The notes beneath the pieces were generated by a model. That model searched no databases, was not told the origin of the DNA, and saw only the letters and a list, made by a program, of their open reading frames with translations. Below, in pieces: positions 57,730-64,000 of a stretch of 64,000 nucleotides of DNA. The stretch lies in the NCBI RefSeq assembly GCF_014191605.1, contig NZ_JACHWU010000001.1, positions 682,001 through 746,000 of the forward strand, in the 5' to 3' direction. How positions within the stretch are numbered: the first letter of the stretch is position 1; the number at the start of each line of letters is the position of its first letter. The position numbers and the translations under genes are program-made. This DNA comes from Prauserella isguenensis (GTDB lineage: Bacteria; Actinomycetota; Actinomycetes; Mycobacteriales; Pseudonocardiaceae).

Positions 57730-59013
57730 CTACTCCTCGGATCTGTCTGATTCGCCGGTTGTCACCGTAGTGCCGGAATCGGTGGCACGGGAGGCGGCGT
57801 TCGGGTCCTCCTGGTCCTCCTGGTCCGTACCACCGGCATCGGGCTCGGTGCCGCCGTCTCCGGTTCGCGCCGCGCGATCACCGTCACCGTCCGGGTCCTC
57901 GTCGTGAACCAGGGATTGGACTCCCGCGTTCACCACCGCCAGCAGCGGGACGGCGAGCAGCGCGCCGGGGATGCCGGCCACGGTCAGTCCGACCGTGATC
58001 GCCAGGACGACGGCCAGCGGATGGAGCCGTACCGACCGGCCGAGCAACAGCGGTTGCAGGACGTTGCCCTCCAGCTGCATGACGCCGACGACGATCGCCA
58101 GCACGATGACGGAGGCGAGGAAGCCGTTGGTCACGAGTGCGACGAGCACGGCCACGGCACCGGTGACGACGGCGCCGATGATCGGGACGAACGCGCCCAG
58201 GAAGATCAGGGTGGACAGCGGCACCACCAGCGGAACGCCCATGATCCACAGGCCGATGCCGATGAGCACCGCGTCCACGACGGCCACGGCGGCGGTCGCG
58301 CGCACGTAGTTGATCAGCGACGTGAACGCCCGCCGGCCGGCGAGGTCGACCCGGGCGCGGACGTTGCGGGGCACTCCGCGGGTGAGGTACGTCCAGATCT
58401 TGTTTCCGCTGGTCAGGAAGAAGATCAGGATGAAGAGCGTCAGCAGGAAACCGGTGAGGAACGTGCCGATCGTGCCTGCCGTGGTCAGTGCGCTCGAGGT
58501 GACCGCGGCCTGGTTCTCCTGGATGAACTGGATGCCGTTGTTGATGGCGTCCTGGATCTGCGTCTGCTGCAGGTGCAGTGGCCCGTTGATGAGCCAGTCC
58601 TCGATCTGCTCGAGGCTCTGTGACACCTGTTGCTGCAGCGCGGGCAGTCCGTCGGTGAACTGGATGATGACGAACGTCAGCAGTCCGCCGACGACACCGA
58701 GTCCGCCGATCAGCACGATGACCGCGGCCACCGTTTGCGGCAGGCCGACCCGCGCGAGCCGGTGCACCGCCGGGATCAGCAGCGCGGCGAGCAACAGCGC
58801 CACCGACAGCGGGATCACGACGACGGGGAGGTAGCCGATGACTTCTCCGACGACGTACAGCGCGGCCACGATCACGAGGAATCGCCACGCCAGTGCAGCA
58901 CTGACCCGGAACCCCTTCGGTACCGATCGCGCGACGTCGGCGTCGAGGGAGCTGCCAGGAGGCGCGGTGTCGGTGGTGGTGCTCCCGGTCGTCCGGGCCG
59001 TCTCGTCGTCCAC
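57730..59013 (-). CDS. AI-2E family transporter (TqsA/PerM-like)
   Basis: A 427-aa polytopic permease, GTG start, of the AI-2E/PerM family, with about eight hydrophobic helices: FLVIVAALYVVGEVIGYLPV, VVIPLSVALLLAALLIPAVH, TVAAVIVLIGGLGVVGGLLT and a final GIPGALLAVPLLAVVNAGVQ, all family-typical. The N-terminus and the C-terminal 55 residues are Asp/Gly/Thr-rich. Members export quorum signals or work as Na+/H+ antiporters; the substrate is unknown here. The gene is 13 bases upstream of the histidine kinase gene and may be cotranscribed with the two-component system. Confidence 0.87.
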   Translation of the reverse strand: MDDETARTTGSTTTDTAPPGSSLDADVARSVPKGFRVSAALAWRFLVIVAALYVVGEVIGYLPVVVIPLSVALLLAALLIPAVHRLARVGLPQTVAAVIVLIGGLGVVGGLLTFVIIQFTDGLPALQQQVSQSLEQIEDWLINGPLHLQQTQIQDAINNGIQFIQENQAAVTSSALTTAGTIGTFLTGFLLTLFILIFFLTSGNKIWTYLTRGVPRNVRARVDLAGRRAFTSLINYVRATAAVAVVDAVLIGIGLWIMGVPLVVPLSTLIFLGAFVPIIGAVVTGAVAVLVALVTNGFLASVIVLAIVVGVMQLEGNVLQPLLLGRSVRLHPLAVVLAITVGLTVAGIPGALLAVPLLAVVNAGVQSLVHDEDPDGDGDRAARTGDGGTEPDAGGTDQEDQEDPNAASRATDSGTTVTTGESDRSEE

Positions 59014-59335
59014 GGGATAACCGTATCGAGATCGGCGTCGCCGTGTGCGGTGAGTCGATCTACAGGCCGTGGGCGCTACGCCGCGTCACACCCTGATACG
59101 CCGCGTGATTTTCACACCTTCGTGCCATCAAGCCGCGTGGGGCGTGATTTCCGGGGTGTGGGTTTGCCACTCTCGTCGGCACGCGGTGAAAACCGCCGGA
59201 ATTCATTTTCCGATTCCTCTTCACGTTTTGCGGCGCTCCCCGAGACCGGGCGGCCGTGGAACCGAGACGGCAAGGCATTTGCAGCGCGGTCCTCGACGAC
59301 GAGGTGCGCCAGTTCGACATTCACGAGGAGTGTGC
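59014..59335. other. upstream region of the two secreted-protein genes
   Basis: 322 bases between divergent genes, with repeated CGCCGCGTCACACC and CGCCGCGTGATTTTCACACC pieces (59090-59127) that could be operators. It should contain promoters for both the permease and the secreted-protein gene. No gene supported. Confidence 0.45.
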
Positions 59336-60718
59336 GTGGCAGCGACGACCCCGACACCGGACGCCCGGCGCGTCCGTCGGTGGCTGTCGCGCGTGCTCGC
59401 CGTGTCGGGAGGCGCGGCGGCCGCCACCGCGATCGCGTGGGGTGTCGGCGCGACGTCCGCGTCCGCGATGGAGAGCCCTCTCGACGTCGGCCGCGACAAC
59501 CCGGCGGCGTCCGTCCCGGTCGACGCCGATGCCACGTCGCCGTCCGCGAATGCCGAATCGTCCGAATCCGACTCGTCTCACCGCGATGCGGCGCAGTCCG
59601 ACGGCCGACAGGCCGGGGAGTCGCGGCCGACCGGTGGTGCAGACCACGACGGCACCGCGCACGAGTCGGCCTCGCCCGAGGACGCGGCGTCGGCGGACGG
59701 TGCGCTCGCCGAACAGTCGACTGACGGAGAGCCCGCTTCGGGTGCCGCCACGTGCGGTGAGTCCGCCGACGGCCCGACGGACGTGCGCGGCCTGTTCGAC
59801 CGCGCACACGGCGACCGTTTCGACCTCGGCCGGTTCCAGGCTTCCGGTCGTGACGTGCCCGGTTCGCAGCTTCCCGCTTCCGACGACGGGGCTTCCGGCG
59901 ACAAGGGCACCGACGACGACAAGACCACCGACGATGCAGCCGCCGAGGATGCAGCCGCCGACGATGCAGCCGAGGGCCAGACGGATGCCGCGCCGGAGAC
60001 GTGCGCGCACGGCTCCGAGCGCCCGGGCGAGGTCGACGAGCCGGAAAGCGCCGAACACCACGCCACGTTCGTTGCGGCCGACGGTTCCGACGACGCCCGG
60101 AAGCGGGTCGAGCAGGCTTGGCAGCGGCACGTCGCGGAGCCGACGCGCGAGGCGATCCACCGTGTCGGCGACACGGTGCGTGCCGTGGCGAACCTCGACG
60201 AGTGGTCCGGCGACCGGTCGCCCTCGTGGTCCGAATTCGACCTGCCGTGGGCGGGATTCACGCCCGACCCCGCCGAGCTGCCGTCGTCGTACGACGTGCC
60301 GATGGGCGCCGGCTCGCAGGGGCACGCTCCCGAGACTTCGCCGCAGGACGCTGACGCCCGTGAGTCCGGCGACCAGCGGCATTCGACCGTGACGTCCACT
60401 TCGGACGACGGCGCTTCCGAGACGTCCGGTGTCCTCGACACCGGCTTCGACGGCGCGGGCACCGACGGTGCCGCCGTCGACCCCGACTTCGGCGAACCGA
60501 CGACGCCGTCGCTGCCGGAGTTCGACCCGCAGTACGTGCCGGCCTCCGTGCCGTCGCACTCCTCGATCGCCGGCGGTGCGCACGCAGACGCACCGTCCGG
60601 TGCGGTCGTCACCACGGCCGATCCGTTCGCCGTGGCCGCCGTGGGCGCTGTGACGCGCTCCGGCTTGCTGCACAAGTCGATGTCGCCGGGTTCGCAGCCC
60701 GGTGTGACGCCCGACTGA
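59336..60718 (+). CDS. secreted acidic low-complexity protein
   Basis: A 460-aa protein, GTG start at 59336 with GAGGAG ten bases upstream. Residues 1-45 are a twin-basic signal region: RRVRRWLSRVLAVSGGAAAA, then TAIAWGVGATSASA with a probable cleavage after ASA. The mature part is Ser/Asp/Ala/Glu-rich and low-complexity, with short DDAAAED repeats (about 205-225) and only two cysteines (CGESADG and TCAHGSE) that could pair. A short more ordered segment (RVEQAWQRHVAEPTREAIHR) lies near residue 270. No known domain. It is next to the chaplin-like protein but separated by a terminator, so it may be a surface or matrix protein. Confidence 0.7.
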   Translation: MAATTPTPDARRVRRWLSRVLAVSGGAAAATAIAWGVGATSASAMESPLDVGRDNPAASVPVDADATSPSANAESSESDSSHRDAAQSDGRQAGESRPTGGADHDGTAHESASPEDAASADGALAEQSTDGEPASGAATCGESADGPTDVRGLFDRAHGDRFDLGRFQASGRDVPGSQLPASDDGASGDKGTDDDKTTDDAAAEDAAADDAAEGQTDAAPETCAHGSERPGEVDEPESAEHHATFVAADGSDDARKRVEQAWQRHVAEPTREAIHRVGDTVRAVANLDEWSGDRSPSWSEFDLPWAGFTPDPAELPSSYDVPMGAGSQGHAPETSPQDADARESGDQRHSTVTSTSDDGASETSGVLDTGFDGAGTDGAAVDPDFGEPTTPSLPEFDPQYVPASVPSHSSIAGGAHADAPSGAVVTTADPFAVAAVGAVTRSGLLHKSMSPGSQPGVTPD

Positions 60719-60733
60719 TCACTTCCGCGGGGT

Positions 60734-60791
60734 AGCCGGCACGCCCCTGCGGTTTTCGTTTCCGCATTTTCTTTTCTCCGTGCCGGCTTTT
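60734..60791 (+). terminator. terminator after the secreted acidic protein gene
   Basis: A 10-bp perfect stem, AGCCGGCACG (60734-60743) with CGTGCCGGCT (60779-60788), separated by 35 bases and followed by a T run. The long loop is unusual, so efficiency is uncertain. Confidence 0.55.
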
Positions 60792-60918
60792 CCTTTCCCC
60801 GCATTTCCCGCGACGGGCCGTTCGGCGTGTTCGCGATCCGCCTCATGTCCCCGCGCGTCCGGCGGAGCGCACTGATGTCCCCTCAACAGGGAACCTAGGA
60901 AAAGGAGAACACCACACA

Positions 60919-63900
60919 ATGCAGACCTGGGCGAAGCGTGGATTGCAGACCGCGCTGGTCACCGGTGGCATGATGATGCTGGGTACCGGCATCGCTTCCG
61001 CTGACGAGAACGTCGATCCGGACTCCCCCGCCGGTCCGCTCGATGCAGGCGTCAGCGTTCCCGTTCAGATCGAGGACAACGCGGTCGGCACCCCGATGGG
61101 CCAGCACGACCTGCCGGGTGTCGACAGGGAGATCAGCACCAAGCCCGTCACGGACAAGGTCAACGAGGCCTCCGCTCCGGCGATGGAGAAGGCCCAGCCC
61201 GTCACGGACCGCGTGAACGAGGCCGCGGCCCCCGTCACCGAACGCGTGCAGTCGGCGGCCGACCGCGGCAACACGGCGATGACCCAGACGGGTCCGCACA
61301 CCGAGAAGGCCTCGCCGAGCGTGGAATCGCCGGTCACGAAGGCGACCAACGCCGGCGCCGACCGGCTCCCCGGGCCGGTGTCGGAGTCCGCTCCGCAGCC
61401 CGAGAAGGTCACGGACACGCTCACCCAGCAGGCCGGTGGCGCCGACGCGCGTCAGGTGCCCGAGCCGGGCGACGACCCGTTCATGGGCAACAAGGTCGAC
61501 ACCAACATCGCGCTGCCGATCCAGATCACGGGCAACGCGGTGGGCATCCTCGGTGACGCCGAGGTGCACTCGGACTCCGAGCAGTCCTACGAGCACAACT
61601 CCGACGTCAGCACCGACGGCTCCTCCGGTGGGCTCGCGGGCAACGTCGTGGCCCTCGACTGGGCGGCGCCGGTGCAGATCTCCGGTAACGCCGGCAGCCT
61701 GGGCGGTTCGGGCAAGACCACGGGCAGCGCCTCGCAGGACGCCACCACCACGGGCGACGTGGAGACCGACGGCAGCAACGGCGCAGGCGCGGGCAACATC
61801 GTCTCGCCGCAGTTCGCCACTCCGGTGCAGGTGTCGGGCAACGCCATCGCGTGGTTCCTCGGCCACTCCGAGACCGACTTCGACCCCAGCAGCTCCGCCG
61901 AGAGCGGCGGTTACCTCGCCACCAACGGCGAGGGCGGCTCCATCGCGGGCAACGTGGTGGGCGCGCCGGTCGCGCTGCCGGTGCGGGTCGCCAACAACGC
62001 AGCCACGTGGGGCGGGGACGCCGACGCCGCCGGTTCGTCGATGGTCGACGCTGCCGCGGGTGACGACACGTCGCCGGGCATGCACGACATCGAAAGCTTC
62101 ATCCAGACCGAGGGCGAGAACGGCTTCGCTTCCGGCACGATCGCCCAGCCGCAGGTCGCCTCGCTGGCGTCGGTCACGGGTGTCGCGGGTTCGTGGATCG
62201 GCAACGCCGCGACGGGCGCTTCGGACGACCGGCAGGCCGGTGGCACGACGTCCGACGCGACGATGACCGCGGGCGGCGCCTCCAACACGAACGGCAACGA
62301 GGCCGCGGGTTCGGGCAACATCGTCGACGCCCCGGTGGCGCTGCCGGTGGAGATCTTCGGTGTCGGTGGCACCTGGATCGGCAACGCGCACGCCGACGAC
62401 CACGTCAACAGCACCGAGGCGGTCGCGGGCGGCGACACGCTGACGCCGGGCGACGAGTCGGTCCTGTCCTCGAACACGGCGTCGGCCGCGATCGCGTCGG
62501 CCGCCGAGGTGTTCGGCGTGGGCGGCGCGTGGATCGGCAACGCCTCGGGCAGCGCCGAGTCCGACAAGCTCGTCGACGCGGGCGGCTACAACGGCACGCT
62601 CGCCAACGAGTCCTCCGGTTCGGGCAACCTGGTGCAGGTGCCGCTGGCCACGCCGGTCGAGGTCTTCGGTGTCGGCGGCAGCTGGATCGGCCAGGGCGTC
62701 GGCGAGGGCGAGGAGACCAAGGAGGTCATCGCCGGTGGTGGCGGCAGCACCATCGACGACTACGGCTTCGCGAACGCCAACCTGGTTCAGGCGCCGGTGG
62801 CGCTGCCCGCGCAGGTCTTCGGTGTCGGCGCCAGCTGGATCGGCAACGGCTTCGGCGAGGGCGAGACCGACACGATCACCGAGGCCGGCGGCGACGCGAC
62901 CGCCGCGGGCGACAAGGGCACGGTTGCGGGCAACATCGGCTTCGTCCCGGTGTCGCTGCCTGCGCAGGTGCACGGGATCGGCGCCAGCTGGATCGGCAAC
63001 GGTCACGGCACCAGCGGCAACCTGACCGACTCGATGGCCGGTGGCGACGCCACGACGTCGGGTGAGCACGGCTCCATCGCCGGCAACCTGGTCGAGGTTC
63101 CGGCCGGTGGCGCGGCGTCGGTGTTCGGCAACGGCGCGAACTGGATCGGCACCGCGTCGGGCACCGGCGTGAACGACGTCGTGTCCGAGGCGGGCGGCGA
63201 CTCGGAGACCGTCGGCGACGGCGGTTCGATCGCGGGCAACATCGTCAGCGCCGACGCCATGCCGATCGTGTCGGCCTTCGGCAACGCGGCCAGCCTGACC
63301 GGTGTCGCGAACGGTGCGGGCGCGAACTTCGTGGACGTCACCTCCGGTGGCGACAAGGAGACGTCCGGCATGGGCGGCGCGATCTCCGGCTCGATCATCG
63401 ACGTGCCGCTCACCGCAGTGGCGCAGCTGTTCGGCAACGCCGCCACGGTCGGCGGGGTCGCGAACGCCATCGGCGACAACACGACGGTGGGCGAGTCGAG
63501 CGGCACCACCACGACGGCCGGTGACCCGCAGTCGCTGTCCGGTGTGGACGTGCAGCGTCCGATCGGCGTCGTCGCGCAGGTGTACGACGTGCCGCTCGAG
63601 CTGCTCGGCCAGGCGACCACCGTGGCCAACAACGACACGGACCTGACGGTCGCTGACGCGCCGATCGACCCGATCGTCGACAAGCAGATCACCGGTTCGG
63701 AGCTGCCGGCGACGGGCATGCCGAACACGCCGTACTTCGACGCGCTGGCCAACCGCGCGCCGGAGCTGGCGTCGGCGTCCCCGATGCAGCGTTCGGCCAC
63801 GCCGGCCGCGATGCCGGCCGCCCCGGGGCTGCCGACCGCGCCGGGTGCGGGCGACCTGCCCGCCGGTGACCTGCCGGTCAGCGGTCTGCTGCCGGAGGTG

Positions 63901-64000
63901 TCCGGTGCGGAGGCCCCGGAGCTGCCCGCGATGCCGGCGCAGCGTTCGGACGTGCCGCAGCTGCCGGCCGACCCGACGCAGGGTGAGTTCGCCGGTGCGC
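60919..64000 (+). CDS. giant secreted protein of tandem chaplin-like repeats (3' end outside window)
   Basis: At least 1027 codons, open to the right window edge. The ATG at 60919 has AAGGAG about 12 bases upstream. Residues 1-28 form a signal peptide (MQTWAKRGLQTALVTGG, cleavage after ASA). After a Pro/Glu/Val spacer, about residues 190-917 hold roughly 14 repeats of about 50 residues with the pattern GNxVxxPxxxPVxVxGNxxxWxG followed by a Ser/Asp/Gly/Thr-rich linker that ends GSIAGN or similar. This resembles the hydrophobic chaplin domain of Streptomyces aerial-hyphae proteins but the two cysteines of chaplins are absent; the visible protein has none. Residues 929-933 are LPATG, a sortase-like motif, followed by a Pro/Ala/Gly tail without an obvious membrane helix so far. 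An open frame on the minus strand over this region is an artefact of the GC skew. Confidence 0.8.
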   Translation, partial: MQTWAKRGLQTALVTGGMMMLGTGIASADENVDPDSPAGPLDAGVSVPVQIEDNAVGTPMGQHDLPGVDREISTKPVTDKVNEASAPAMEKAQPVTDRVNEAAAPVTERVQSAADRGNTAMTQTGPHTEKASPSVESPVTKATNAGADRLPGPVSESAPQPEKVTDTLTQQAGGADARQVPEPGDDPFMGNKVDTNIALPIQITGNAVGILGDAEVHSDSEQSYEHNSDVSTDGSSGGLAGNVVALDWAAPVQISGNAGSLGGSGKTTGSASQDATTTGDVETDGSNGAGAGNIVSPQFATPVQVSGNAIAWFLGHSETDFDPSSSAESGGYLATNGEGGSIAGNVVGAPVALPVRVANNAATWGGDADAAGSSMVDAAAGDDTSPGMHDIESFIQTEGENGFASGTIAQPQVASLASVTGVAGSWIGNAATGASDDRQAGGTTSDATMTAGGASNTNGNEAAGSGNIVDAPVALPVEIFGVGGTWIGNAHADDHVNSTEAVAGGDTLTPGDESVLSSNTASAAIASAAEVFGVGGAWIGNASGSAESDKLVDAGGYNGTLANESSGSGNLVQVPLATPVEVFGVGGSWIGQGVGEGEETKEVIAGGGGSTIDDYGFANANLVQAPVALPAQVFGVGASWIGNGFGEGETDTITEAGGDATAAGDKGTVAGNIGFVPVSLPAQVHGIGASWIGNGHGTSGNLTDSMAGGDATTSGEHGSIAGNLVEVPAGGAASVFGNGANWIGTASGTGVNDVVSEAGGDSETVGDGGSIAGNIVSADAMPIVSAFGNAASLTGVANGAGANFVDVTSGGDKETSGMGGAISGSIIDVPLTAVAQLFGNAATVGGVANAIGDNTTVGESSGTTTTAGDPQSLSGVDVQRPIGVVAQVYDVPLELLGQATTVANNDTDLTVADAPIDPIVDKQITGSELPATGMPNTPYFDALANRAPELASASPMQRSATPAAMPAAPGLPTAPGAGDLPAGDLPVSGLLPEVSGAEAPELPAMPAQRSDVPQLPADPTQGEFAGA
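61486..63660 (+). repeat. coding repeats, about 14 units of about 150 bp
   Basis: Units start at about 61486 (GNKVDTNIALPIQITGNAVG), then GNVVALDWAAPVQISGNAG, GNIVSPQFATPVQVSGNA, GNVVGAPVALPVRVANNA and so on to GVDVQRPIGVVAQVYDVP. The middle units (about 62200-63060) share FGVGxSWIGN. Unit length is close to 50 residues, the first and last are most diverged. Confidence 0.75.

Follow-up and report, generated by a model that had tools for sequence, protein, structure and literature searches.

RESULTS

A giant repeat protein and its relatives

In this study, we analyzed a 64,000-nucleotide stretch of the Prauserella isguenensis genome (contig NZ_JACHWU010000001.1, positions 682,001 to 746,000; hereafter the window), which ends in the gene of a giant chaplin-related repeat protein (60919..64000, plus strand, residues 1-1027 of 1,085; hereafter the giant), preceded on the same strand by the gene of a secreted acidic protein that we call its partner (59336..60718). 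The giant starts at the ATG at 60919, which is preceded by AAAAGGAG; its frame is open up to the window end and stops 176 bases beyond it, the complete gene (L001:2920-6177) encoding 1,085 amino acids (aa). Its N-terminus, with KR, a hydrophobic stretch and ASA, was read by eye as a signal peptide (residues 1-28, 61,002 being the last base of 60919..61002) and is strongly conserved in an alignment of 13 giants (alignment A1). An N-terminal half-repeat (residues 40-85, 61036..61173, VSVPVQIEDNAVGTP), visible in the same alignment and in the repeat profile, is separated by a variable linker from 14 chaplin-like repeats of ~51 residues each (residues 186-917, 61474..63669), for which a beta-solenoid is predicted. 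The Pro/Ala-rich C-terminal tail (residues 918-1085, window part 63670..64000), in a region where the AlphaFold2 confidence score (predicted local distance difference test, pLDDT) is below 50 from residue 913 on, contains an internal LPATG (residues 929-933, 63703..63717) and ends in NGYGLGAFV. A repeat profile built from the giant itself finds 15 units, that is, the half-unit and the 14 full ones, mostly of 50 to 53 residues, and scores 764.9 bits on the giant compared to at most 4.8 bits on 200 shuffles. The protein is acidic, contains 15.6% Gly and 15.1% Ala, and has no cysteine in its 1,085 residues. The features listed in the initial annotation of this gene, that is, a signal peptide (by eye), about 14 repeats of ~50 residues, the lack of cysteine, and the LPATG, are thus all present.

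Relatives were collected from 163 loci, of which the best 80 were taken and 75 parsed, 5 without a match to the N-terminal motif being dropped. Among the best 80, the closest come from Prauserella (91-92% identity) and further ones from Amycolatopsis, Thermocrispum, Haloechinothrix, Lentzea, Actinophytocola, Kutzneria, Crossiella, and others. Giants in tandem, two in one genome, occur at L041 and L051, and in one case (L040:6501-9607, also L095) the giant is split over two frames, by a draft error or as a pseudogene.

Relationship to chaplins

The initial annotation had proposed a multi-domain relative of the chaplins and a search with the chaplin family PF03777 as a check. The complete giant scores 46.7 bits with this model (cut-off, 21 bits), and its window part (residues 1-1027) scores 48.6 bits; in a scan of the latter to an E value of 1, PF03777 is the sole Pfam family, and NCBIfam gave no match to E 1 for these residues or for the partner. 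The signal is a sum over the repeats, single repeats being weak: a PF03777 search of the giant's own genome gave no match at E 0.001 and five weak ones at E 0.01 (best E, 0.0019). The 14 control genomes of that search matched nothing and are hence uninformative; informative, on the other hand, are the strong matches of the class-wide search, where genomes presumed to be Streptomyces (f31) have 5 to 15 PF03777 matches each.

Two profile comparisons point the same way. Cysteine-free repeats of the giants, compared as a profile with 23 chaplin domains, align over 27 columns that include the first two GN positions (E 6.7e-9; score, 36.7, while 50 weak column-shuffled controls reached at most 13.1); for this set, 99 of 1,029 repeats were dropped as partial and identical ones merged, leaving 881. 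In the reverse direction, a chaplin-free profile of 13 giants finds matches in 82 of the 393 class genomes searched (best E, 4e-31); 80 of the 82 lie outside the family, and 74 of these 80 also match PF03777 (hand comparison). The proposed kinship is borne out by the PF03777 score and by both of these searches, and we conclude that the giant is very probably a chaplin homologue.

The hydrophobicity of the cores is chaplin-like as well. The mean grand average of hydropathy (GRAVY) is 0.60 for the giant's chaplin-like cores and 0.55 for the 23 chaplin domains, whereas the stretches between the cores are polar (GRAVY, -0.69), and the repeat region taken whole comes close to neutral (GRAVY, 0.04; net charge, -73).

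A conserved secreted partner

The partner comprises 460 aa, counted from a GTG start that was picked by eye and is likely given a GAGGAG just upstream; it has a net charge of -54, two cysteines, and the C-terminal sequence PGSQPGVTPD. Across 20 partners, the N-terminus (consensus RxRRWxSRALxVxGGAxAGTAAAWA) and the tail are conserved and the middle is variable. Defined as a protein that ends in PG, one to three residues, and PD and is encoded at most 1,200 bases upstream of the giant, such a secreted partner lies directly upstream in 74 of the 75 relatives, the exception being L162. The tails mostly follow PGxQPGVTPD (PGSQPGVTPD in 24 and PGEQPGVTPD in 23 of 75, window included), with PGKQPGINPD in another 9; by construction, part of the conservation at P-6, G-5, P-2, and D-1 comes from the rule itself, which does not apply to Q-7, V-4, T-3, or the first PG. 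Partner and giant-type match occur together in 238 of 371 genomes of the same family (Pseudonocardiaceae level), one occurs without the other in 35 and 2, and neither occurs in 96 (cross-read by hand), although these genomes are related and the counts are not independent. Searches of the partner gave no Pfam family to E 1 and no second copy in the genome to E 10. The suggestion that the acidic secreted neighbor could act with the giant is strengthened by this constant position, the conserved tail, and the co-occurrence.

At two loci (L053:5645-7096, 484 aa, and L054:5109-6395, 429 aa), the giant's signal peptide is present and the repeats are absent, and the partner is kept, with tails PQPGITPD and PQPGTTPD, respectively.

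History of the array and of its cysteines

Within the giant, the repeats share a mean identity of 30%. Compared with nine relatives, they match in order in five (L089, L091, L101, L110, and L116; up to 78% mean identity), and the order is partly blurred in four (L144, L151, L159, and L162). Across the 75 giants, 11 to 17 units were matched, 14 in 44 of them, counting the half-unit where found (a separate run gave 18 units for L162). Because repeats correspond in order between relatives and their number is mostly 14, the array is old and not homogenized, unlike a freely expanding repeat.

Cysteine-free giants make up 15 of the 75. Of the 163 cysteines in this set, 140 sit 12 to 17 residues from another one, compared to 3.9 expected under random placement (a control that includes the split gene L095). 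These pairs, ∼14 residues apart and confined to a few repeats, fall for the most part into repeat columns 21-22 and 35-37; columns 21-22 correspond to the position that precedes the second GN in chaplins. Since relatives retain such spaced pairs, the cysteine-free state of the giant looks derived, that is, a loss.

Distribution in the family

A profile of the giant matches 273 of the 371 family genomes, leaving 98 without a match; 56 of the 273 matches are weaker than 1e-50 (hand count), leaving 217, and in five of the weak-match genomes (G007, G011, G016, G018, and G019) the match is N-terminal only. PF03777 itself matches in 238 of the 371, and the matches listed lie mostly in frames of at least ∼1,000 residues. 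Among the matches listed, few are classical short chaplins: four cases are clear, in frames of 87, 104, 119, and 135 aa at 39 to 80 bits (L178, L179, L181, and a match in G270, L177), although rare ones may escape a search in which 16 to 17 first-pass candidates were scored per genome and matches were listed to about E 6e-4. Weaker PF03777 matches in other short frames were listed for G063, G071, G072, G023, and G100, and a 514-aa frame (G235, L192) resembles an anchored two-domain chaplin.

The internal LPATG

Sortase anchoring through the LPATG, considered in the initial annotation, did not survive completion of the gene. Because 152 residues follow the motif without a membrane helix and the motif is unconserved in relatives, it is not a sorting signal; the completed protein ends without an LPXTG, a membrane helix, or a basic tail. 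Any LPxTG is found in 18 of the 75 giants, at scattered positions, and none of the 75 has one in its last 50 residues together with a hydrophobic stretch, a mildly hydrophobic stretch within the last 80 residues being present in four. By chance, some LPxTG arises in 1.2% of 10,000 shuffles of the tail (residues 918-1085). Nor is a sortase gene near, a check that the initial annotation had proposed: of the two in the genome, one lies ∼92 kb upstream of the giant and the other 955 kb downstream.

Spacer, upstream element, and neighborhood

Partner and giant are separated by 200 bp (60719..60918, plus strand). Relatives have spacers of similar length (median, 194.5 bp; 170 to 220 bp in 63 of 74), with conserved blocks CGCGGGGTAGC near the start and, in many relatives, CCCGCAAGGGAACC ahead of the ribosome site. 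The spacer is possibly a leader RNA or a terminator of the partner gene. Rfam gave no match in L001:800-6300 to E 1, nor in eight relatives at the gathering threshold, and we claim no RNA family because covariation is weak (13 pairs, 4 of which changed on both sides, with 30 of 75 sequences aligned).

Upstream of the partner lies a conserved 25-nt DNA element (59111..59135, plus strand). A first pattern matched 1 of 74 loci; a consensus made by eye is met with at most six mismatches in 54 of 74 relatives, compared to 0 of 148 control stretches, the 54 being partly by construction since the consensus derives from those sequences. The element may serve the divergent gene of an AI-2E family transporter (57730..59013, minus strand; Pfam), which also lies upstream on the opposite strand at 73 of 75 loci and which we regard as a conserved neighbor outside the unit of partner and giant. 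In 20 neighborhoods that we drew, the AI-2E gene occurs in 16, a kinase and a regulator as well in 13, a LigB-type gene in 9, and dnaB in 6; the neighborhoods of L043, L044, L051, and L052 have none of them. Downstream of the giant, near dnaB, lie genes (L001:14649-17378) that look PPE/WXG-like in composition (named by eye).

DISCUSSION

Our favored reading, to which we give a probability of roughly 55%, is that the giant is a secreted, unanchored, single-chain multi-domain chaplin relative that acts in a surface layer together with its partner. Each unit would supply the amphipathic, beta-rich segment otherwise given by one short chaplin, and stacking within the chain would replace the disulfides and the self-association of short chaplins. 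The product would be a preassembled, beta-rich rod whose faces are hydrophobic and whose loops are polar and acidic. The partner may cap this rod, hold it soluble, or tether it, and rod and partner together would form a coat on hyphae or spores; Pseudonocardiaceae would use the giant instead of many short chaplins. A more ambitious version, which we regard as speculative and rather doubtful, is a one-molecule rodlet, that is, a chaplin fibril made as a single chain, its length fixed by the ∼14 conserved units, its cysteines made dispensable by intramolecular stacking, and its dedicated partner capping or docking it through the PGxQPGVTPD tail, serving as the main surface coat of the family in place of short chaplins.

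Several points weigh against this surface-coat reading. AlphaFold2 folds the giant's repeats into a beta-solenoid, for which Foldseek found no significant match, and one study describes confident but false AlphaFold2 solenoids obtained from perfect repeats (PMC11795689). The two repeat-less loci further imply that the repeats are not essential everywhere. The solenoid could therefore be an artifact and the giant a mostly disordered, Gly/Ala-rich extracellular matrix protein, an explanation that the acidic Gly/Ala-rich composition would also suit; against it, the giant's repeats are far from perfect, at only ∼30% identity, and many of their positions are invariant across genera. We judge this explanation unlikely. 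We see a somewhat better, if still low, chance that a chaplin-derived beta-solenoid now serves as an adhesin or polysaccharide-binding rod instead of a surfactant coat. The individual conservation of the repeats is what a rigid rod would show, the loops are polar and acidic, and the lower-ranked VIA structural matches include the secreted beta-helix proteins EtpA, HMW1, and UpaB, but the cores retain chaplin hydrophobicity, and the Pfam scan gave no adhesin or carbohydrate-binding family. Least probable, and in our view improbable, is a structural protein of the envelope or cell wall of substrate hyphae that has nothing to do with aerial growth and is similar to chaplins by ancestry alone: the constant position by the AI-2E gene, the two-component system often found nearby, and the repeat-less versions would fit such a role, whereas the Pfam scan gave no wall-binding domain and the protein has no anchor.

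About 217 of 371 genomes of the family, to which Amycolatopsis belongs, hold a unit of two genes that includes a long multi-chaplin protein (hand count), while few of the matches listed are short chaplins. Many soil-dwelling members of this family carry one such giant adjoining a secreted partner. Giant and partner are a surface-coat candidate open to direct testing in organisms whose coat is not worked out in the literature searched, and the giant, a naturally occurring chain of covalently linked chaplin units, lends itself to studying chaplin stacking and the need for cysteines. The accessible part of one review names a few genera outside Streptomyces with chaplin-like genes, and no member of the Pseudonocardiaceae is among them (PMC4255298); among the matches listed in our literature search we recognized no description of the giant or its partner.

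Compared to the chaplins ChpA-H of Streptomyces coelicolor, the giant is probably likewise secreted, keeps two GN positions at chaplin spacing, has cores of similar hydrophobicity, and matches in profile, and its relatives keep the cysteine pairs. Yet it has 14 full units, whereas chaplins have one (short form) or two (long form); it lacks cysteine, a sortase signal, and the third GN, which lies beyond the alignment; and it adds polar acidic segments between the cores and a partner gene. Chaplins are defined in PMC13251363 by three GN motifs per domain, and a ChpB domain is named there as an exception to the rule of two cysteines per domain. Because it differs in the third GN, the cysteines, the domain number, and the sorting signal, the protein falls outside the chaplins sensu stricto and is a giant variant of their kind without an anchor.

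Curli offer a possible structural parallel. CsgA from Pontibacter korlensis (8c50), a stacked beta-solenoid, gives the best VIA alignment with both models, but identity is 7%, the Foldseek E value is insignificant, and no Pfam curlin match was found in residues 1-1027 to E 1, so that the two share at most a common working principle. Rodlins are small proteins. RdlA and RdlB of Streptomyces resemble the partnership proposed here in being secreted and acting with chaplins, and RdlB forms amyloid (PMC5314377).

Other actinobacterial families hold further parallels, multi-chaplin proteins (L052, L208, L210, L212, and L217) with several to ∼10 units per chain and, for L052, a predicted strand order similar to that of the giant; L209, L211, L215, and L216 are shorter multi-chaplin-like proteins whose mature part is cysteine-free. 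The multi-chaplin proteins found elsewhere are shorter (frames of 497 to 719 aa) and have a hydrophobic C-terminal stretch with a basic end (by eye) that is absent from the giant. Because such proteins occur in other families, many domains and a lack of cysteine are not unique to the giant; its size, its missing anchor, its old array, and its partner set it apart.
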